Source of the DNA: Betaproteobacteria bacterium RIFCSPLOWO2_02_FULL_63_19
GTDB lineage: Bacteria > Pseudomonadota > Gammaproteobacteria > Burkholderiales > SG8-39
DNA: 64,000 nucleotides
Assembly (NCBI GenBank): GCA_001770415.1
Contig: MEQX01000028.1
Location: forward strand, 62,001-126,000
Reading direction: 5' to 3'
Positions 35,949 to 47,330 of the stretch are shown here, one piece after another; within the stretch, counting starts at the first letter, position 1; the number at the start of each line of letters is the position of its first letter. The position numbers were made by a program, and so were the translations under genes. Below the pieces are notes generated by a model. The model searched no databases. It was not told the origin of the DNA and saw only the letters and a list, made by a program, of their open reading frames with translations.

Positions 35949-36140
35949 GCATTCGAGGGCGTTTGCGATGTCCACAGCGGACAGCAATGCATCGTTGCAT
36001 TCGGAATTCGCCTCCCGCTTTCAGAAGCAAGTGGTAGGCTGCCGATCTCTTGCGGTGCGATTGGTTCGGGATGCGGCGACTTCACTCAGCTTTGCATTCC
36101 ACGGCGGCCGGCGCGAGGCGTCACGACATTGGAGACGAGC

Positions 36141-37832
36141 TTGAAGAGTTACCAGGACGGCGGCGAAGCGATTCTCGAGGCAATCCGCAATCTCGGCATT
36201 GAATACATCATGTCCTCCCCCGGATCGGAATGGAGTCCGGTGTGGGAAGCAATGGCCCGGCAGACGGATTCGGGCGCAGCGGGGCCGCAGTTCATCGAGT
36301 GCTGGCACGAAAACGTGGCGGTCGACATGGCCATCGGATATACCGCCGTTACCGGTCGGCCGCAGGCCGTGCTCGTGCACGCCGGCGTTGGTCTGATGCA
36401 TGGTGCGATGGCGGTACTTTCGGCGTCCCAAGGGGAGATTCCGATGCTCCTCATGTCGGGCGAGTCGACCAGCTTCGGCGCCGATCCGTCTCGACAAACC
36501 GAAGCACAATGGTACGGCGGTGTCAGCGTCGGCGGCGCGGACCGCTATATCGGCCCGTTGGTCAAATGGTCGCGCCACGTTTCGCATCCGTCGGTAATCT
36601 ACGAAAGCGTCACACGTGCCGGCGAAATGGCCGAACGCCAGCCGAAGGGCCCGGTCTACCTCAATGTTTCGCTCGAGGCCATGCTGCACCCCTGGACGAG
36701 ACCTGAGCTGCCGCGCCGCATCCGCCCGGCGCCGAAATTGCAGCCATTGTCCGAGGACATAGCCGAAATCGGGGTTTTGCTCGCAAACGCCCAGCGACCG
36801 TTGATCGTTACCGAAACCGCCGGCCGCGATGTGGCGGCGTTCGATGCGATGATCGAGTTGGCACAGCGCTACGCGATCCCAGTTATCAACGGTCGGGCCA
36901 GCCACTACACCAATTTCCCCAAAGATCATCCGATGTGGCTCGGCTACACGGACTTCGGGCAACTCGAAGATTCCGATCTGATCCTGATCGTCAACGGCCG
37001 CACCCCATGGTATCCGCCGTGGAAGCGTCCGGGGGTCGGTCACATCGTCGCGATCAGCGAGTACCCGCTGAAGGACCGGCTGGCATACCAGTGCCTGCAC
37101 GCCGATCGCTATCTCGAGGGCGATGTGGCGACTTCTCTCAGCCTGCTTGCCGGGGCTGCCGCCTCGGCGGACAAGGCGACGGTCGCCAAGCGCCGCGCAT
37201 ACTGGGCCGGTGAACACGATGCGCTGATGGCGCGTTTGAAGGCCGCCGGTGAAAAGGCGCTGGCCGGGTCCGGCATCGACGCCGTAGCGCTTGCCCGCGT
37301 CGCGGCAGAGGAACTACCTGACAATACCATCGTCGTCGACGAAACGATTACGCACATGCAACTGATGCGCCCGCATCTTCCGCTTAATCGCGCACAGAGT
37401 TTCTTTCGCGTCGCGGCCGGAGCCTTGGGCCAGGGCATGGGGTGCGCGCTGGGCGTCAAGCTCGCTGCCCGCAAACAGCCGGTCGTGCTGTTCGTCGGCG
37501 ATGGCTCGTTCATGTATAACCCGATCGTGCAGTCGCTCGGCGCCTCCAACGCGTACCAGCTTCCGATTCTGATCGTCGTGTGCAATAACGGCGGGTATGA
37601 AGCCATGCGCAAAGGTCACTTACTTCATTATCCGGGCGGCGTGTCCGATACCAAGGAACTCTATTACGGCGTCAACCTCGACGGGCCCGAGTATCACGAA
37701 CTCGGATCGCCATTCGGTTGTTTCGGTGCCAAAGCGGGCGATCTGAACGCTTTGCGCAGAGGTTTCAGGGACGCATTGGCGGCCGTCGAAAGTGGACGAT
37801 CGGCGATTGTGAACGTCGTAATGACCCAATAG
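36141..37832 (+). CDS. Thiamine-diphosphate-dependent enzyme (acetolactate synthase superfamily), first
   Basis: A protein of about 563 residues with the three-domain layout of POX/AHAS-type ThDP enzymes. The N-terminal Pyr domain has the catalytic Glu in CWHENVAVDMA (about Glu57); a central domain follows. The C-terminal PP domain holds the cofactor/magnesium motif from GDGSF (about 453) to NNG (about 483). I start at TTG 36141, six bases after GGAG; a TTG at 36129 has no site. No FAD or regulatory-subunit gene is nearby, so a decarboxylase or lyase is as likely as acetolactate synthase. Substrate unknown. Confidence 0.85.
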   Translation: MKSYQDGGEAILEAIRNLGIEYIMSSPGSEWSPVWEAMARQTDSGAAGPQFIECWHENVAVDMAIGYTAVTGRPQAVLVHAGVGLMHGAMAVLSASQGEIPMLLMSGESTSFGADPSRQTEAQWYGGVSVGGADRYIGPLVKWSRHVSHPSVIYESVTRAGEMAERQPKGPVYLNVSLEAMLHPWTRPELPRRIRPAPKLQPLSEDIAEIGVLLANAQRPLIVTETAGRDVAAFDAMIELAQRYAIPVINGRASHYTNFPKDHPMWLGYTDFGQLEDSDLILIVNGRTPWYPPWKRPGVGHIVAISEYPLKDRLAYQCLHADRYLEGDVATSLSLLAGAAASADKATVAKRRAYWAGEHDALMARLKAAGEKALAGSGIDAVALARVAAEELPDNTIVVDETITHMQLMRPHLPLNRAQSFFRVAAGALGQGMGCALGVKLAARKQPVVLFVGDGSFMYNPIVQSLGASNAYQLPILIVVCNNGGYEAMRKGHLLHYPGGVSDTKELYYGVNLDGPEYHELGSPFGCFGAKAGDLNALRRGFRDALAAVESGRSAIVNVVMTQ

Positions 37833-38071
37833 CTGCACACGGGCATGTCCGTTCGAACCGGCTGTGAAATTCGAACGGCCCCTGGCGCGCCGGAATCCAG
37901 CGCATGACTTCGCTGCTGCCGCACACCGAATCTTGTGTTACTTTCGCAAAGATTTTTGATCGACCAACATGCGCAAGCAGCCCAGCTGACCGGCCGAACC
38001 CATTTCTCGGCGGGGGGCAATAAGGGTCAGCGCCGCTGTTGCCGTGTTTGTTTTGTAAACGAGGAAAGGGA

Positions 38072-39832
38072 ATGAGCAAACCACAAGTCAAACCAAACAA
38101 CGCTATAGGCCGCGAAGAGCCGCAGGGTCCGCTTGCCACCCGCGCCGGCTTCGGCAGCGATATCGTCGCCGAAACACTTAATGCGCTCGAGCTGCCGTAC
38201 ATCGCCCTCAATCCGGGTGCAAGCTATCGTGGACTCCACGACAGCATCGTGAATTATCTGGGCAACAGACAGCCCCAGATGCTGCTATGTCTGCATGAAG
38301 AGCACGCAATACATATTGCCCAGGGCTATGCCAAGGTCACCGGCAAGCCGATGGCCGCCGCCGTTCATTCAAATGTCGGGCTGATGCACGCGTCGATGGC
38401 AATCTTCAATGCCTGGTGCGATCGCATGCCCATGGTCATCATGGGAGCCACCGGCCCGGTCGACGCAGCGGTGCGCCGTCCATGGATTGACTGGATCCAT
38501 ACCTCGCGCGATCAAGCCTCGATGATCCGGCACTATGTAAAGTTCGATGACCTGCCGGGTTCCCCTGCAGCGGCGCGCGAGGCGCTCACGCGGGCAAAAT
38601 GGATCGCGGAAACCGCGCCGAAGGGACCGGTCTACATCAATCTCGACGTGACGCTGCAGGAATCGCCACTAAAAGCCGATCTGCCGCCGTTCGACATCAG
38701 CCGTTTTGCACCCGAAATACAGGTCGGCCCGACGCCGCAACAAGTCGATGCAATTGCGAAACTAGTACGGGAGGCGAAGAAACCACTCGTATTGTATGGC
38801 CGGCTTTCCCGTTCGGAAAAAGGGTGGGCCGAACGCATCGTGCTCGCCGAAAAGCTGGGGGCCGGTGTCCTGACGGATCTCAAAGTCGGCGGCAGCTTTC
38901 CCACGGACCATCCGCTTCATGTTGGCGCACCCCGAATGGGACCTGACAAGGCGGTGCAGGATGCGGTTGAAGGCGCCGATCTGATACTTGCCTTTGACGT
39001 TGTCGACCTTGGCGGGCTGTTCAAGGTCAGTCTCGGCGGTAAGCCGCCGGCCGCCAAGGTAATTCATGTTTCGATGGATCACCGGATTCACAACGGCTGG
39101 ACGATGGATCATCAGATCCTTCCTCCTGTCGATTATTTTGTTTCCGCCGATCCCGATGCCGTCGTTTCGGCGCTCGTCGGCGCCCTTGGCGACCTGAAGG
39201 CAAAGGCACCAAGACCGCGTCAACAAGAAGCGCAGGAAATTCGCCCGCCCGGTGAGCGTCCGCTGGTGCGGGATTTGGCCTTGTCGTTGCACAAGTCGCT
39301 GGGCAAGCGTGATGTATGCCTCCTTTCCACGACCATCGCCTGGCACGAAGACTGGTGGCCCATTCGCCACCCGCTGGATTACGTCGGCGGCGCAGGTGGC
39401 GGCGGGCTAGCGGCCGGTCCGGGCATTTCAGTTGGCGGTGCGCTGGCGCTTAAGGGCACCGACCGCATGGCGGTCGGCATTATCGGAGACGGCGACTTCT
39501 TGATGGGCGCTACATCCGTCTGGACTGCTGTACGCTACAAATTGCCGCTGCTGATTGTCGTGGGAAACAATTCTTCCTTCTATAACGACGAATTGCACCA
39601 AGAACGAGTCGCCAAGGGGCGTAGTCGGCCCGTCGAAAATAAATGGATCGGTCAGAAAATGATCGAGCCGGACGTCAACCTCGCCAAGATTGCCGAAGGA
39701 CAGGGTGCCGTCGGAATAGGCCCAATCAATACGATCGGCGAATTGGCCGATGCGTTTGCCAAGGCCATCGCAGTGGTCGAGGCTGGCGGAGTCGCCGTCG
39801 TTGATGTGCGCGTCGTTCCCGGATATGCCTGA
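38072..39832 (+). CDS. Thiamine-diphosphate-dependent enzyme (acetolactate synthase superfamily), second
   Basis: A 586-residue relative of the preceding enzyme. The Pyr-domain motif is CLHEEHAIHIA (about Glu76); the PP-domain motif runs from GDGDF (about 472) to GNNSS (about 500). ATG 38072 has GAGGAAAGGG just upstream; the open frame from 38039 lacks one. Conservation with the first enzyme is limited, so they are not a recent duplication. Side by side in an island of uptake systems, they could act in one pathway or as a heteromer. Substrate unknown. Confidence 0.85.
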   Translation: MSKPQVKPNNAIGREEPQGPLATRAGFGSDIVAETLNALELPYIALNPGASYRGLHDSIVNYLGNRQPQMLLCLHEEHAIHIAQGYAKVTGKPMAAAVHSNVGLMHASMAIFNAWCDRMPMVIMGATGPVDAAVRRPWIDWIHTSRDQASMIRHYVKFDDLPGSPAAAREALTRAKWIAETAPKGPVYINLDVTLQESPLKADLPPFDISRFAPEIQVGPTPQQVDAIAKLVREAKKPLVLYGRLSRSEKGWAERIVLAEKLGAGVLTDLKVGGSFPTDHPLHVGAPRMGPDKAVQDAVEGADLILAFDVVDLGGLFKVSLGGKPPAAKVIHVSMDHRIHNGWTMDHQILPPVDYFVSADPDAVVSALVGALGDLKAKAPRPRQQEAQEIRPPGERPLVRDLALSLHKSLGKRDVCLLSTTIAWHEDWWPIRHPLDYVGGAGGGGLAAGPGISVGGALALKGTDRMAVGIIGDGDFLMGATSVWTAVRYKLPLLIVVGNNSSFYNDELHQERVAKGRSRPVENKWIGQKMIEPDVNLAKIAEGQGAVGIGPINTIGELADAFAKAIAVVEAGGVAVVDVRVVPGYA

Positions 39833-40085: not shown

Positions 40086-40304
40086 CTAGCCGTTCTCGGG
40101 CGGATCCGCAATTTCGTGCACCTGCAGAACAGCCATAGGCGAGAGGGATGACCCCTGCTCTCTCAATATCCGGGCTGTGTAACTGGGGTCGACTAGCGTG
40201 AGAAAAGGATTGCCACGCCCGTCCATGGGTGGCCAGAATCGAACGAACCAATCATCTCTGTCGGCACTATCTGACGCGTCGGGCTCCAACGCTTGTGCAT
40301 TCAT
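40086..40304 (-). CDS. Small hypothetical protein, 72 residues
   Basis: Starts at ATG 40304, nine bases after GGAAGGA; an ATG three codons upstream (40313) sits too close to that site. The product is acidic at the N-terminus (EPDASDSADRDDW) with a middle part FVRFWPPMDGRGNPFLTLVDPSY. I do not recognise a family. A pair of 16-bp palindromes lies 90-129 bp upstream of the start (40394-40433), also found before the ferritin-like gene. It is followed by the 31-codon gene. Confidence 0.55.
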   Translation of the reverse strand: MNAQALEPDASDSADRDDWFVRFWPPMDGRGNPFLTLVDPSYTARILREQGSSLSPMAVLQVHEIADPPENG

Positions 40305-40393
40305 ACAACGCATTCCTTCCGAAAACGCGGTAAGGCGGACTCTTCCATATCGTCTATGAATGACATTTAAAGCGCTTCGCGCGAATAAAGATA

Positions 40394-40433
40394 TCCCCGG
40401 AGCCGGGTAATTCCTGATACCGGGAAGCAGGTA
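40394..40433 (-). promoter_or_regulatory. Tandem 16-bp operator-like palindromes, copy 1
   Basis: Two imperfect palindromes, 40418-40433 (TACCGGGAAGCAGGTA) and 40394-40409 (TCCCCGGAGCCGGGTA), lie 24 bp centre to centre, right after the fnr stop and upstream of the small gene starting at 40304. Their form (TACC-N8-GGTA, 16 bp) resembles the 7-2-7 sites of NarL-type regulators. The same arrangement occurs at 42840-42878. Confidence 0.55.
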
Positions 40434-40436
40434 GCG

Positions 40437-41252
40437 TCAAGCGCCGAGCGCTGAAACCTTGGACGCCGCCCGCTTGGTGTCTTGATGGGCCGGAAGCGAT
40501 ACAGCCAACAACGCTTTCGCGGTGGTCGCCGGCTGAGCTTCACCCATGGAGCCGGCTACATGCCTGAGCCCCGGCGCATTCAGAATCCGAATGTACTTCT
40601 GCATGACGGCGACAAGATTGTCCCGGTGGAACTGTGAAAGCACCCGGCTGACGGTTTCGAGCTGAATTCCGAGAAAACTGCCGATATCCTCGCGGTTCAT
40701 GCGCAGAATGAATTCGGACGCCGAATAGCCTCTCTCTTCGAAGCGGCGCGACAGAGTGAGCAGAAAAGCCGCCACGCGCTCACCCGCTCGAGCTCCCCCG
40801 AGAAGCATCTTGACCGCCTGATGACGCACCATTTCGCGGCCCATAACCCGGTGAAACTGGTGCTGTAGCCCGCGCACCTCGCGCGATATCGCCTCCAATC
40901 TGACAAACGGGATAACACAAACCACGCTATCCTCCAAAGCAACCGCATTGCAGCTATAACGATCCGTGCCGATGCCATCCATGCCCAAGACATCGCCCGA
41001 CATAAGAAAATCGATCACTTGCTGGCGACCATCTTCGAGGGCCACCTCTTTCTTGAAAGAACCGCTTCGGATCGAGTAAATCGCACCGAATTGGTCCCCC
41101 GCCCTGTACAGTTCTTCGCCGCGGCAGAGTTTGCGACGGGCATATACGAGTTGGTCGAGACGCTTGAGGTCATCGGCCGACAGATCCGTCGGTATGCATA
41201 ACTCGTGCAGCCCGCAGTTCGAACAAGACGACAATGGCTGAGTCATATTCAT
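40437..41252 (-). CDS. fnr: FNR-type oxygen-sensing transcription regulator
   Basis: A Crp/Fnr-family protein of 271 residues. The N-terminal cysteines 10, 13 and 19 (CSNCGLHELC) and Cys112 (DSVVCVIPF) match the four ligands of the oxygen-labile 4Fe-4S cluster of FNR. The recognition helix has ETVSR, the FNR form that reads TTGAT-N4-ATCAA. A tail of about 30 residues after the HTH region is longer than in E. coli FNR. It should activate genes under low oxygen. It is 36 bp after the conserved hypothetical gene. Confidence 0.92.
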   Translation of the reverse strand: MNMTQPLSSCSNCGLHELCIPTDLSADDLKRLDQLVYARRKLCRGEELYRAGDQFGAIYSIRSGSFKKEVALEDGRQQVIDFLMSGDVLGMDGIGTDRYSCNAVALEDSVVCVIPFVRLEAISREVRGLQHQFHRVMGREMVRHQAVKMLLGGARAGERVAAFLLTLSRRFEERGYSASEFILRMNREDIGSFLGIQLETVSRVLSQFHRDNLVAVMQKYIRILNAPGLRHVAGSMGEAQPATTAKALLAVSLPAHQDTKRAASKVSALGA

Positions 41253-41288
41253 GGATATGGTGGCGTTTCCCAGGCGCAGACACTCTTC

Positions 41289-41891
41289 CTATCGCGCAGG
41301 AACGAAACCCGCGTTCGTCGGCTGTCGGTGCACGGGCTGCCCTGCTGTTGGCCGCCTGTTCCGAACGGATGGAACAAGACGGGTCACCAGGATATCCGCA
41401 TCGAGCAGTGGCTCGACGCAGTGGTTCCCCCCCAAGAACAGCAACCCGATTTCGGCCGTTGGCAATGTTGCATTGATGCGGGCTGCGATAAAGCGATCCC
41501 GCTCGACAAGCAGCTCTTGTTTTCGGTTCGCATTCCGGTCGTCATCGTCCTGCCTCTGTCCGCCCAAAACGTCCTGAAGCAACCGGTATTCATGAAGAAG
41601 AAGGCTGGCGTCTTCGGTGCCCACCAGCCGAGCACCTTCGTCAACCAACTTCAGCAGCAACTCATGATTGTCGCTTCCGCTCTCGGCAATGCGCCTGACG
41701 ACCTCATATTCCTTTTCACAGCAAGGTAACGCGTCCTGGTACAGATGAACGTTCGTGTACGGCAGTTCCAATTCCGCAACCGTCTTGCGAATCCCGGGCC
41801 AGTCCGTTTCCCCAAACGCATGTTCTCCGCCGACCGAAGACGCGGCATTTCCTTCCGGAGAAGCGATTGGAATCCAAATCAGCGTGCGCAT
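41289..41891 (-). CDS. Conserved hypothetical protein upstream of fnr
   Basis: A 200-residue cytoplasmic protein starting MRTLIWIPIAS. The segments LPYTNVHLYQDALPCCEKEYEVV (about 43-65), ARLVGTEDASLLLHEY (about 87-102) and RDRFIAARINATL with GLLFLGGNHCVEPLL (about 130-165) look conserved rather than random, and I recall unnamed homologues in other bacteria. No catalytic motif is recognised. It lies just upstream of fnr on the same strand and downstream of the ferritin-like gene. Function unknown. Confidence 0.65.
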   Translation of the reverse strand: MRTLIWIPIASPEGNAASSVGGEHAFGETDWPGIRKTVAELELPYTNVHLYQDALPCCEKEYEVVRRIAESGSDNHELLLKLVDEGARLVGTEDASLLLHEYRLLQDVLGGQRQDDDDRNANRKQELLVERDRFIAARINATLPTAEIGLLFLGGNHCVEPLLDADILVTRLVPSVRNRRPTAGQPVHRQPTNAGFVPAR

Positions 41892-41985
41892 CGAGCAGCT
41901 CTGGCGATGAAATGCGGCCTCAATCGCGAATCAGCCATACCTCGCTTCACCCTGCTTGCCACCAACGCTGAAAGCACATTCGCAC

Positions 41986-42597
41986 TTAAAGAGCTTGCGG
42001 CGTCGCCGGGTCGCCGGGACAGTCCTCGCCCGGTTGAAAGGGCATCGGTACCCGCGAGAGCGAATCCCGCAACCATGCGACATGGGATTCCTTTTCGCGC
42101 CCGAGGTCGATCGCGAGTTCACGGACCCCGGGGTCCTTCGACGTGGTACGCACTTTTTCAAAAAACATCATTGCGCGCGTCTCTGCACCGAGCGCGATTT
42201 CCAAAGCGAGGCGCGGCGTCAACATCCGGAACAGGAAATCGTCGCCTTCCGGGGCCGGAACGTCGCTGTAGAGCCAGGAATGCTCACCGGCACTGAACTT
42301 CGGCGGCACCATGCTGCGGGTAGCCTTCGCGAGGTGGCAGGCCTGCTCCCCGCTCAATTCGGATAGTCGGCCGAATAAATCGGCGACCTCGTCGTTGCCC
42401 TTGTCGGCCGCGTGTATGGCAAATCCTCCATATCGCGCGATCGCCTCCTGTGCCATCGCCAGCGCATGGCGATAGAGTGTGTCCAGCGTGCTAATTTCTG
42501 ACCCTGTTCTTCTCTTTGCCGACCTGATATCCCGCTTCAGCGCGCCCGCGGTTGAATGATCACGGCGCTGCGCTGCTTCGGCGTGTACCAGGGACAT
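41986..42597 (-). CDS. Ferritin-like (rubrerythrin-type) protein
   Basis: A four-helix-bundle protein of 203 residues with two spaced sets of possible diiron ligands: Glu residues in AQEAIARYGGFA and SGEQACHLAK, then EIALGAETRAMMFFE and GREKESHVAWL. I start at ATG 42597, preceded by AAGGAG; the open frame runs to 42711. No rubredoxin domain is present. Such proteins act in peroxide or iron handling. A pair of 16-bp palindromes lies about 240 bp upstream. Confidence 0.75.
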   Translation of the reverse strand: MSLVHAEAAQRRDHSTAGALKRDIRSAKRRTGSEISTLDTLYRHALAMAQEAIARYGGFAIHAADKGNDEVADLFGRLSELSGEQACHLAKATRSMVPPKFSAGEHSWLYSDVPAPEGDDFLFRMLTPRLALEIALGAETRAMMFFEKVRTTSKDPGVRELAIDLGREKESHVAWLRDSLSRVPMPFQPGEDCPGDPATPQAL

Positions 42598-42957
42598 GTC
42601 TTCTGCTCCTTCTTGCCTAGCGACATTCGGCTCGGAATGCGGTGGCACAAGCGTCATGTAGTAATAGGGCGATTGTTCGACCTTAAAATGTGCGACTCGA
42701 TCGGTCATCAAACCATTCCCGCATCAACGAAGCACGCGGTGTCGCGTGCGGGCACCATACTCAAGCGATTGTCGGATCAATTCACGTGGTATTTCTTAAA
42801 CGTGAGATTCAATGTAGGCGATTTCGTGCTGCACGAATATTCCGGGCAACAGGTAATCGCAATACCGGGAAACGGGTAGTCGGGAGCGTTACAGGACGCC
42901 TTCGCCAAGCAAGCCGAACCAATCGCCTCCCATGGCCCTGGGGCCGTGGCGCTTTTC
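42598..42957. other. Intergenic region before the ferritin-like gene
   Basis: About 360 bp between the response regulator stop and the ferritin-like start. It carries the second tandem palindrome pair (42840-42878). A partial reading frame continues upstream from the ferritin-like ATG to 42711 but has no ribosome binding site there. No other gene is apparent. Confidence 0.5.
42840..42878 (-). promoter_or_regulatory. Tandem 16-bp operator-like palindromes, copy 2
   Basis: Two palindromes, 42863-42878 (TACCGGGAAACGGGTA) and 42840-42855 (TTCCGGGCAACAGGTA), lie 23 bp centre to centre. The first differs from its counterpart in copy 1 at only two of 16 positions. This pair lies 80 bp after the NarL-type regulator stop and upstream of the ferritin-like gene. 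Confidence 0.55.
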
Positions 42958-43602
42958 CTAAGGAGAAGTCAAACCTTCGCGGATGGCGTACTTGGTCAGT
43001 TCGGCGATGCCGTGCAAGTTGAGCTTGCGCATGATGTTGCGCCGATGGACTTCGACCGTGCTCACCGATATGTGCAACTGTGCGCCGATTTCAGATGAAC
43101 TGTTCCCATCGGCGAGCAACGTCAACACTTGACGTTCACGCGGTCCCAGTTTCGCCGGTGCATGACCAGCGATTGAACCGTGACCTCGAGCCTCATCAAC
43201 CACGGCGCCGGCGACTTCCGGGGACAAGTAGGTTTGCCCTTGCGCAATCGTACGGATTGCGCGCGGCAGTTCCTCCCCCGCTGAGGCTTTGACGAGGTAT
43301 CCCCTGGCGCCGGCCTCCATCATTTCGAGCACAAAGCGTTTATCGGTATAAGCCGACAGCGCGATTACTTTCAACAGTGGCCGTGCGGCAAGCAAACGCC
43401 GCGTCGCCTCAATGCCGTTGATACCGGGCATGCCGATGTCCACCACGGCGATATCGGGGGCCGTCCTCTCGACAAGTTCAAGAAGCGCTGTACCGTCGGC
43501 TGCATCTCCGACTACGGCGATGTCGTTTTCCTTTTCAAGCAGCGAGCGTAGCGCCGCCAGGATCATCTTGTGGTCATCGGCTAGCACGATTCGAATACTC
43601 AT
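42958..43602 (-). CDS. NarL/FixJ-type response regulator
   Basis: A 214-residue two-component regulator. The receiver domain has the acidic pair Asp9-Asp10, phospho-acceptor Asp55 (VVDIGMPG) and Lys near 104 (LVKAS). The C-terminal LuxR-type HTH starts LGPRERQVLTLLADG and has VSTVEVHRRNIMRKL. Its gene is the third in the operon binding protein-kinase-regulator, 30 bp after the kinase. I infer that it binds the TACC-N8-GGTA sites found next to it and before the small gene. Confidence 0.92.
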   Translation of the reverse strand: MSIRIVLADDHKMILAALRSLLEKENDIAVVGDAADGTALLELVERTAPDIAVVDIGMPGINGIEATRRLLAARPLLKVIALSAYTDKRFVLEMMEAGARGYLVKASAGEELPRAIRTIAQGQTYLSPEVAGAVVDEARGHGSIAGHAPAKLGPRERQVLTLLADGNSSSEIGAQLHISVSTVEVHRRNIMRKLNLHGIAELTKYAIREGLTSP

Positions 43603-43632: not shown

Positions 43633-45645
43633 CTACGGGATAACAATCTCAATCAAGGTGCCTGCCCCCGACCGGCTGTGAACTCTTAGCTCCCCGCCCA
43701 GCATCGCAGCGCGTTCGCGCATCCCCATTAGACCGAACGAACCTCGCCCGGGCCGGTCCTCGTCGGAAACACCTTTTCCATTGTCGCTTATGCTCAAGGT
43801 GAGCATTCCCGATCCGTCACGATGGAGCGACACTGTGGTTTCGCTCGCTTCAGCATGCCGTGCGACGTTGGTCAGGGACTCCTGAACCATCCTGTAAAGC
43901 GGCATTGCAAGTTTGTCATCGATAGACAGGTCCGGCGGGTGAACGCTGAATTCGCATTCGATTTTTGTACGTTCCGAAAATCGCTCCACCAAATCGCGCA
44001 AGGCCACCACCAAGCCCAACTCGTCCAGTACGACCGGCCGTAGATTGGTTGCAATCTGACTGACCGAGTGCATGGTCTCGGTCAGCAGCGAATCTATGTC
44101 CTTCAGCTGCCGGTTCAAGTCGGAGTCCCCCTGGGCAAACGTTGACAGCGCGAGCGCAGTTTGCAGTTTGAGTACTGTAAGCTTCTGCGACAACTCATCG
44201 TGCAGTTCCCGCGCGATCCGCTTGCGCTCTTCCTCCTGGACCGATTCTTGAACGGCAGTCAGCGCCTGCAGCAGTTGGTGCGATCGCTCCAATTCGGCGG
44301 TGCGCGCCTGAAGCAGTTCCGCGCTGCGCCGGCGTTCTTCCTCGACGCGTCTGCGTTCAGTGATATCGCGCAGAAAGCACAGAAACTGGCCCTTGCGGTC
44401 CAATCGATGTCTCACCGTGACCTCAACCGGCCATGTTACGCCGCCTTTGGTTCGGTGCAACGTGTCAAAAACGTCCGCCCCTTTGTCCCGGATGGCTTCT
44501 ATATGCGATGCGATATCTGCTGCCGACTCCTTCGCGTCCAGGTCGACAATATGCATTCCGACCAGTTCGTCGCGAGTGAAGCCGGAGCGACGTACATATG
44601 CCTCGTTTACATCCAACAGCCGTCCGTCCTGGTCCACGGCCCAAAATCCATCGCTGCTCATTTCGACCACCGCGCGATAGCGTGAATCGCGCTCGGCCAG
44701 CGCCTCCTCGGCCTGCTTTCGTTCGCTGATATCGCGAATAATGCCGGCGAAATAGTTCTCGTCCGGTGTCTCCCATGCCGAAAGCGAAAGCTCGATCGGG
44801 AATTCCCTTCGTGCCTTGGTCAGCCCATGCAGTTCAACGGACTTGCCGAATACGTTCCACGAACTGCCGGTTTGTACTCTTCGAATACCTTCAAGATGTC
44901 TTTGGTGATACCGCTGCGGTAATACCAGCGTCAGCGGTTGGCCGATGAGTTCGGCTTGCGAATAGCCGAACATCCGCTCGGCCGCCGGATTCCATCCCAC
45001 GATCGCCCCCGATCCGTCGGCAATAACAATGGCGTCGTTCGCGGTTTCGGTCACCGCACGTGACAGCGCGGCGGCCGCGTTTCGCGCTTCGGTTTCCTTG
45101 TTGAGTGCGGCGGTCACACGCCGCAGTGCCCGCATGGGCAGGACAAGCAACGTCGCGTATACCAAGCCGCCCAGCAGCACGCCCAGAAGTCCCGCGGCCA
45201 CGGTGCCGTAAATTACATTGCGATACGAGTGCGCGACCTCGACGTGCCCCACTGTCCGTCCCGAGTCATAGATCGGGAACGTGCGCATTATGATCGGTGC
45301 TTCCGAAGGTGCACCCACGGCCAAAATGACCTCGCCGGCAGCGTCGCTGACCGTTACACGCTCGTTGCGCCTTAGCACGCGGTCGCTCTGCAGCAACTCT
45401 TCGATGCGCAGAACCTGGTACATCCACAGGTCCGGGTTAACCCTGGCAAGTCTATTGATCGCCTCGACTTTGACCTGGGCCACCGTCTCGAGATGTTGTA
45501 CCCCGTTCGAATACTCAAGGCTGAAATATCCACCGGGCAGCGCGATCGTTGCCGAAAGCGCGAACAGCAGGGCCAGCCGTTTTACTATCTTGACAATAGT
45601 GTCCTCGGTTAACGCGGTCACTGCACCGGCTCTCAGGGAATCCAT
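43633..45645 (-). CDS. PAS-PAS membrane sensor histidine kinase (HisKA_3 type)
   Basis: A 670-residue sensor kinase. A membrane segment (about 22-42), a short extracytoplasmic part (about 45-142) and a second membrane segment (about 146-169) precede two PAS domains (about 195-310 and 320-432). A coiled linker, the dimerisation/phosphoacceptor region with His482 (ARELHDELSQ) and a HATPase domain (about 575-668, with NGKGV and FGLMGMRERA) follow. The start overlaps the binding-protein stop by 13 bp. It should phosphorylate the regulator encoded next. Confidence 0.92.
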   Translation of the reverse strand: MDSLRAGAVTALTEDTIVKIVKRLALLFALSATIALPGGYFSLEYSNGVQHLETVAQVKVEAINRLARVNPDLWMYQVLRIEELLQSDRVLRRNERVTVSDAAGEVILAVGAPSEAPIIMRTFPIYDSGRTVGHVEVAHSYRNVIYGTVAAGLLGVLLGGLVYATLLVLPMRALRRVTAALNKETEARNAAAALSRAVTETANDAIVIADGSGAIVGWNPAAERMFGYSQAELIGQPLTLVLPQRYHQRHLEGIRRVQTGSSWNVFGKSVELHGLTKARREFPIELSLSAWETPDENYFAGIIRDISERKQAEEALAERDSRYRAVVEMSSDGFWAVDQDGRLLDVNEAYVRRSGFTRDELVGMHIVDLDAKESAADIASHIEAIRDKGADVFDTLHRTKGGVTWPVEVTVRHRLDRKGQFLCFLRDITERRRVEEERRRSAELLQARTAELERSHQLLQALTAVQESVQEEERKRIARELHDELSQKLTVLKLQTALALSTFAQGDSDLNRQLKDIDSLLTETMHSVSQIATNLRPVVLDELGLVVALRDLVERFSERTKIECEFSVHPPDLSIDDKLAMPLYRMVQESLTNVARHAEASETTVSLHRDGSGMLTLSISDNGKGVSDEDRPGRGSFGLMGMRERAAMLGGELRVHSRSGAGTLIEIVIP

Positions 45646-46628: not shown

Positions 46629-47330
46629 TTGAGCAAGAAGATTGTCTATATTTTCCGGCTCGAGTCCGGGATCGGGCACCGCTTTGATGTGGACTTCGAC
46701 CGTCCTTCCGCGGCCGGCGACCTCCCCGCGTGGACGCTGCTCAAGGAGGATAAGTGTCCGCATTGTCCGTTGCCCGATGCGCCCGGCGCACGTTGCCCCG
46801 CTGCCGCCGATCTGGTGCCGATTGTGGAGAAGTTTTCCGAGCTGTCTTCGATAGACCGGATTGACGTGCACGTGCTGAGCCAGGAGTGCGAATCGCGCAA
46901 GCGCACCGATACGCAAACCGCCCTCCGCGCCTTGATGGGGCTGATCCTTGCAACCAGCGCGTGCCCGATCCTCAGTCGAATGCGGCCGCTGGCGCATATG
47001 CATATGCCATTCGCCACCGGAACGGAGATGGTGTATCGAATCGTCTCAATGCACGTTTTCGGCCGTTTCCTGCGCGGCGAGCCGGCCGGATTGGACGGGC
47101 TGCGGGATTTCTTCGCCGACATTGATAAACTCAACCGCGCATTTGCCGGCCGACTGAATCGCGCGGCGCAGCGCGACGCCAGCATCAACGCCCTGCTCGC
47201 GCTGCACTCACACAGTATGTTGGCCAGTATGAGCATTGAACCCGAGATGGAAAACATCAGGGTCTGGTTTCAGCCAGCGTCGGACGGCGCTCAGAGCGAA
47301 GTCGAAACGAAGCCGGAAACTCGCGCTTGA
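46629..47330 (+). CDS. Conserved hypothetical protein (possibly DUF6901)
   Basis: A 233-residue protein starting MSKKIVYIFRLESGIGHRF from a TTG. Features are a probable CPHCPLPD-type cysteine cluster (about residues 43-56, cysteines also in ARC) and the later segments RALMGLILATSACPILSRMRPLAHMHMPFATGTE. I recall this layout from the proteobacterial family called DUF6901, but cannot confirm it. It diverges from the sensory operon, with 174 bp between them. Confidence 0.65.
   Translation: MSKKIVYIFRLESGIGHRFDVDFDRPSAAGDLPAWTLLKEDKCPHCPLPDAPGARCPAAADLVPIVEKFSELSSIDRIDVHVLSQECESRKRTDTQTALRALMGLILATSACPILSRMRPLAHMHMPFATGTEMVYRIVSMHVFGRFLRGEPAGLDGLRDFFADIDKLNRAFAGRLNRAAQRDASINALLALHSHSMLASMSIEPEMENIRVWFQPASDGAQSEVETKPETRA

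Follow-up and report, generated by a model that had tools for sequence, protein, structure and literature searches.

The two pairs of 16-bp palindromes at 40394-40433 and 42840-42878 of the window (the whole stretch of 64,000 nucleotides analysed here) very probably mark a small, hitherto undescribed set of genes that is turned on by the linked NarL/FixJ-family response regulator (RR), whose gene lies beside one of the pairs; an oxygen-sensing Fnr-type regulator would be among these genes. Taken as a whole, the sequence data are best explained, with high confidence, by tandem boxes that would be bound by the RR and would form part of activator-dependent sigma-70 promoters, by a regulon of three such promoters in this genome, and by a cascade leading to Fnr.

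Both pairs have the minus strand as their functional orientation and consist of TACC-N8-GGTA-like 16-mers in tandem, with a spacer of 7 or 8 bp. The first pair (P1) is located between the gene of an Fnr-type regulator and a small ORF. Its distal box 1, TACCTGCTTCCCGGTA, occupies 40418-40433 (plus-strand letters TACCGGGAAGCAGGTA) and its proximal box 2, TACCCGGCTCCGGGGA, occupies 40394-40409 (plus-strand letters TCCCCGGAGCCGGGTA); read on the minus strand from 40433 to 40394, the order is TACCTGCTTCCCGGTA-TCAGGAAT-TACCCGGCTCCGGGGA, with a spacer of 8 bp and a centre-to-centre distance of 24 bp. The second pair (P2) is located between the RR gene and the gene of a ferritin-like protein, with box 1, TACCCGTTTCCCGGTA, at 42863-42878 (plus-strand letters TACCGGGAAACGGGTA) and box 2, TACCTGTTGCCCGGAA, at 42840-42855 (plus-strand letters TTCCGGGCAACAGGTA), both on the minus strand; from 42878 to 42840 the order is TACCCGTTTCCCGGTA-TTGCGAT-TACCTGTTGCCCGGAA, with a spacer of 7 bp and a centre-to-centre distance of 23 bp. 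The coordinates, sequences and spacings given for the two pairs in an earlier note on this DNA were found to be correct when the window was read again; the note had missed a third site in the genome and the polarity of the pairs as promoters, and had not recognised that the Fnr gene is among the targets. Box 1 reads TACC-N8-GGTA at all three sites of the genome, and box 2 of these sites ends in GGGA or GGAA.

The two palindrome pairs are confirmed as real and lie far above chance. A scoring matrix trained on other genomes only, with the three own copies left out, gave 37.6 and 32.8 bits for the sites in the window and 41.2 bits for the third genomic copy, whereas the maximum in 6 Mb of first-order Markov sequence was 10.4 bits. 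In a relaxed scan of the loci of 80 relatives of the RR, tandem pairs with spacers of 7-8 bp and at most three mismatches were found 46 times, as against 3 times in reversed sequence; the enrichment was confined to 7-8 bp, being slight at 6 bp, and all other spacers stayed at the control level. The single box (TACCGG-N6-GGTA) was at background in the own genome (7 vs. 7 in the control), which makes the pair the unit. A sequence-only Infernal model built from 33 sites retrieved exactly three elements from the genome (E values 2.7e-6, 9e-6 and 1e-4), no other independent match being better than 0.48. The genome-wide search for further pairs that had been proposed earlier thus yielded one more copy, which lies outside the window, upstream of the gene of a GlgC-like nucleotidyltransferase and divergent from a double-Usp gene.

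The RR (42958-43602, minus strand) is the presumed binder of the boxes. It combines a receiver domain (Pfam Response_reg, 7.3e-26) with a GerE domain (5.5e-20), as members of the NarL/FixJ family do, and keeps Asp9, Asp10 and Asp55. Upstream of it are the genes of a histidine kinase with the domain order PAS-PAS-HisKA_3-HATPase_c, i.e., with two PAS domains (43633-45645, minus strand), and of a PstS-like periplasmic binding protein (PF12849; 45633-46454, longer ORF to 47003, minus strand), the latter overlapping the kinase start by a few bases. A DUF6901 protein (PF21842, E value 5e-46) is encoded at 46629-47330, divergently from the binding-protein, kinase and RR genes.

Downstream of P1 is the small ORF (40086-40313, minus strand), which has no family match and no homologue in the RR loci; it comprises 75 codons from its first ATG, and the 72 codons reported earlier are counted only from the ATG at 40304. 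Downstream of P2 the genes follow one another on the same strand in the order ferritin-like protein, 200-codon ORF and Fnr-type regulator. The ferritin-like protein (41986-42711, minus strand) matched PDB 2oh3 (COG1633) with an E value of 1.9e-11, and its identity rests on this sequence match, the Pfam matches to Ferritin and Rubrerythrin being weak and the predicted structure too poor (mean pLDDT 48); a homologue sits after the Fnr gene in locus L009. The 200-codon ORF (41289-41891, minus strand) has no match in the RR loci. The Fnr-type regulator (40437-41252, minus strand) carries Pfam HTH_Crp_2 and cNMP_binding domains, scored 213.5 bits with the NCBIfam Fnr model (cut-off 228), and has a C-x2-C-x5-C motif near the N-terminus plus another Cys in the sensor domain. 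Further along, two adjacent genes on one strand (36129-37832 and 38039-39832) apparently encode thiamin-diphosphate-dependent (acetolactate-synthase-like) enzymes and are unmatched in the RR loci.

The element is shared by many betaproteobacteria and is linked to the RR across genomes. It occurs within 400 bp past the RR stop codon in 51 of the 80 relatives of the RR (matrix score >12), a count in which some loci had also trained the matrix and others, among them Aromatoleum, had not and scored 20-40; the peptide EVHRRNIM of the recognition helix was among the search patterns that fetched the RR loci. The conservation of the palindromes in relatives, which the earlier note had named as a check, is thereby established. 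A variant element, in which box 1 and the -10 hexamer are kept and box 2 reads TCAG-N8-GATA, lies about 20-100 bp past the RR stop codon in four related loci (L015, L018 and L055, which are additional to the 51, and L029), all with an fnr-type gene downstream. All six genomes with the nearest RRs contain elements (1-7 model matches each), and fifteen more genomes, picked for a linked element, have 1-8 elements each. The highest numbers, about 8-11 elements each, were seen in two Rhodocyclaceae/Rhodocyclales bins (G306 and G308; L160-L174), mainly before unannotated small ORFs. On the RR tree, presence of the element is clustered, with 16 changes vs. a mean of 22 after shuffling, and none of 500 shuffles was as low. 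Among 21 genomes picked for having no or only a weak element beside the RR, 16 had none at E 0.01 and five had elements elsewhere, up to eleven. As about one third of the RR homologues also have no nearby element, the coupling, though strong, is not universal in the RR family. Forty taxonomic relatives yielded no element apart from one weak partial match in one of them, and a shallow scan of 231 sampled genomes of the class (28 candidates scored per genome) yielded none at E 0.001.

Another NarL-type regulator, or several of them, might bind the boxes, the RR gene being a chance neighbour of such promoters. This is judged unlikely: linkage to one RR subfamily persists over Zoogloeaceae, Rhodocyclaceae, Comamonadaceae, Gallionellaceae and Methylococcaceae bins despite differing downstream genes; in L008, L009 and L067 the kinase or kinase-RR genes have an element ahead of them; and relatives without the 76%-type RR show no clear elements, although the genome encodes at least nine GerE-domain proteins, so that another NarL-type regulator could bind, and RR homologues without elements exist. 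The earlier suggestion that the pairs belong to a regulon of the linked RR is strongly supported by the comparison (51 of 80 loci; six of six genomes with the nearest RRs). The accompanying suggestion, that the kinase senses together with its binding protein, is not supported, as none of the 80 RR loci yielded a relative of the PstS-like gene. In several kin the sensor part of the kinase differs and the catalytic core is conserved, and in L008 and L009 only the core of the kinase is matched. Since the PstS-like gene is without a match and the kinase match is limited to the core, the signal probably differs between lineages.

A hexamer resembling a -10 element is found at a fixed distance past box 2, which identifies the elements as promoters. 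The predicted -10 hexamer of P1, TTAAAT (40365-40370, minus strand; second base T, not A), begins 23 bp past box 2, a position that is constant across sites, and the start would be at about 40358. That of P2 is TACATT (42811-42816, minus strand), with a probable start at about 42804, and the third own site, upstream of the GlgC-like gene, has TACATT at the same offset. The pattern TANNNT starting 23 bp past box 2 was present at 26 of the 33 sites used for training and at 32 of 52 others (mean 0.3-0.4 at other offsets), and the hexamer matched TATAAT at an average of 3.7 of 6 positions, vs. 1.4 elsewhere. The -35 is of poor quality, with at least four matches to TTGACA at a 17-bp spacer in only 14% of the sites. 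Conservation is limited to the boxes and the -10 hexamer, and the sequence between them varies. The -10 hexamer and its usual distance to the start would put the centre of box 2 near -43.5 and that of box 1 near -66.5 or -67.5. Neither box covers the -10 hexamer or the start at any site, the two being placed upstream of the -35 region. Boxes near -43.5 and -67, combined with a -10 hexamer at 23 bp and a poor -35, correspond to the layout of an activator-dependent promoter; a conserved -10 at a fixed distance, a poor -35 and a site centred near -41 to -45 are the features of sigma-70 promoters of this kind.

This layout also bears on the possibility that the RR is a repressor and the pair an operator blocking the promoter, which is considered quite improbable: box 2 abuts the -35 region, a place that repressors can use, but a conserved -10 goes with a poor -35 at nearly every site, the boxes stay clear of the -10 and the start, and the arrangement matches that of the NarL-activated ogt promoter of E. 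coli (PMC7419079). Dispersed palindromic repeats or weak terminators past regulator genes, without a role in activation, are scarcely credible as an explanation for sequences which, although palindromic, intergenic, located after the RR and followed by a T-run past box 2 in the nearest kin, number only three in the genome, are conserved only in the boxes and a -10 at fixed spacing, stand in many copies elsewhere than behind an RR gene, and lie in a region where terminator-like patterns are at the shuffled level, with none on the pairs.

Regarding the genes downstream, an fnr-type gene follows the RR in eight relatives (L009, L010, L011, L012, L015, L018, L029 and L055), and in the kin genomes L107 and L108 the element immediately precedes fnr. 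The GlgC-like gene is the downstream gene of an element both in the own genome and in genome G043, where a Usp gene and a pair of DksA-zinc-finger and hemerythrin-like genes are likewise preceded by elements. At the third element, an apparent cation-transporting P-type ATPase gene lies past the GlgC-like gene (L096:9608-12286). Elements elsewhere precede genes for phasin (Thauera, Aromatoleum), hemerythrin (Rhodoferax), a BON protein, CheW and an Rrf2-type or Crp-type regulator, as well as the kinase-RR genes themselves; outside the own genome, many downstream genes lack annotation or are difficult to assign. In two cases (L051:1129 and L053:5035) the element stands before an apparent gene of an Rrf2-type (IscR/NsrR-like) regulator, with the RR gene next to it in L053. 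The targets form a small and mixed set that includes the kinase; the names of the others (Fnr, ferritin-like protein, phasin, hemerythrin, Usp and GlgC) suggest a theme of oxygen limitation or of energy-storage stress.

NarL-type operators are 16-bp inverted heptamers (7-2-7) with outer TAC...GTA, and the heptamer of E. coli is TACYYMT. The boxes share the 7-2-7 arrangement and the outer TAC...GTA; compared with the E. coli heptamer, the box 1 consensus (TACCGGTATACCGGTA-like) agrees in the outer bases and not in the inner ones. The RR scored below the NCBIfam cut-offs for NarL (128.4 bits, cut-off 250), FixJ (85.6 bits, cut-off 255), ErdR (77 bits, cut-off 390), MctR, MadR and UvrY, and the kinase scored below that for FixL (92 bits, cut-off 850). 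At the ogt promoter of E. coli, NarL activates from -44.5 and -77.5, and a single site engineered at -67.5 is functional as well (PMC7419079). The element resembles this promoter in having tandem 16-bp 7-2-7 palindromes, one of them abutting the -35 region (-44.5 in ogt, near -43.5 here), together with an RR of the NarL family (PMC7419079), and differs in the distance to the upstream site (23-24 bp here vs. 33 bp), in the half-site (TACC(T/G)GT here vs. TACYYMT), and in its RR, which is no orthologue of NarL. With FixLJ-FixK of rhizobia and FixLJ-fixK of Burkholderia dolosa (PMC5234846) the system shares a NarL/FixJ-type RR and a presumed target of the Fnr/FixK type; at P2, as in L107 and L108, an fnr/fixK-type gene has a site of the RR type upstream of it. 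Unlike FixLJ-FixK, the RR is not FixJ and the kinase is not FixL according to NCBIfam, and the Fnr protein keeps its Fe-S cysteines.

The DevR/DosR regulon includes Usp genes. DevR promoters of Mycobacterium tuberculosis have closely packed boxes, the proximal one overlapping the -35 region (PMC3029386). Common to this dormancy regulon and the present system are an RR of the NarL family and several tightly packed boxes, whereas box sequence, phylum and regulon size differ, and a low-oxygen likeness is suggested by the kinds of targets. The CrbR/ErdR acetate switch, in which a LuxR/NarL-type RR activates via an imperfect palindrome in the promoter (e.g., TACTACCATCGTCGAAT, 17 bp) and the targets are acs and actP (PMC5715377), was rejected as the identity of the boxes, as motif and targets differ from those of the element. 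A description of the element was not found in the open-access literature searched, most subscription papers lying outside this scope, which is weak evidence that it was previously undescribed.

Phosphorylated dimers of the linked RR would bind box 1 and box 2, which would stand about 2.2 helical turns apart on the same face of the DNA, with box 2 adjoining the poor -35, and the bound RR would recruit RNA polymerase to the -10 hexamer. The own regulon would comprise P1 with the small ORF, P2 with the ferritin-like gene, the 200-codon ORF and the fnr-type gene, and the promoter of the GlgC-like gene outside the window, fnr presumably being co-transcribed with the ferritin-like gene from P2. The position of P2 upstream of fnr makes it probable that the system is a cascade from the kinase via the RR to Fnr, comparable to the action of FixLJ on fixK. 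A broader reading is put forward tentatively, as plausible and just short of an even chance: the RR may head a widespread, undescribed low-oxygen or dormancy regulon of betaproteobacteria, in which exchangeable sensors would feed into a conserved kinase core, the RR and the tandem-box promoter, and which would switch on Fnr, storage genes (phasin, GlgC), iron- or oxygen-binding proteins (ferritin-like protein, hemerythrin) and universal-stress genes from one to about eleven promoters per genome.

The analysis provides a rule for the operator and promoter, precise enough to be tested, of a so far uncharacterised two-component regulator that occurs in Thauera, Aromatoleum, Rhodoferax, Gallionella and genera related to them, many of which matter for denitrification, the degradation of aromatic compounds and wastewater treatment. 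With this rule the regulon may be read straight from genomes, and the regulator's links with fnr and with phasin, hemerythrin and stress genes would make a layer of control above Fnr in betaproteobacteria open to testing.
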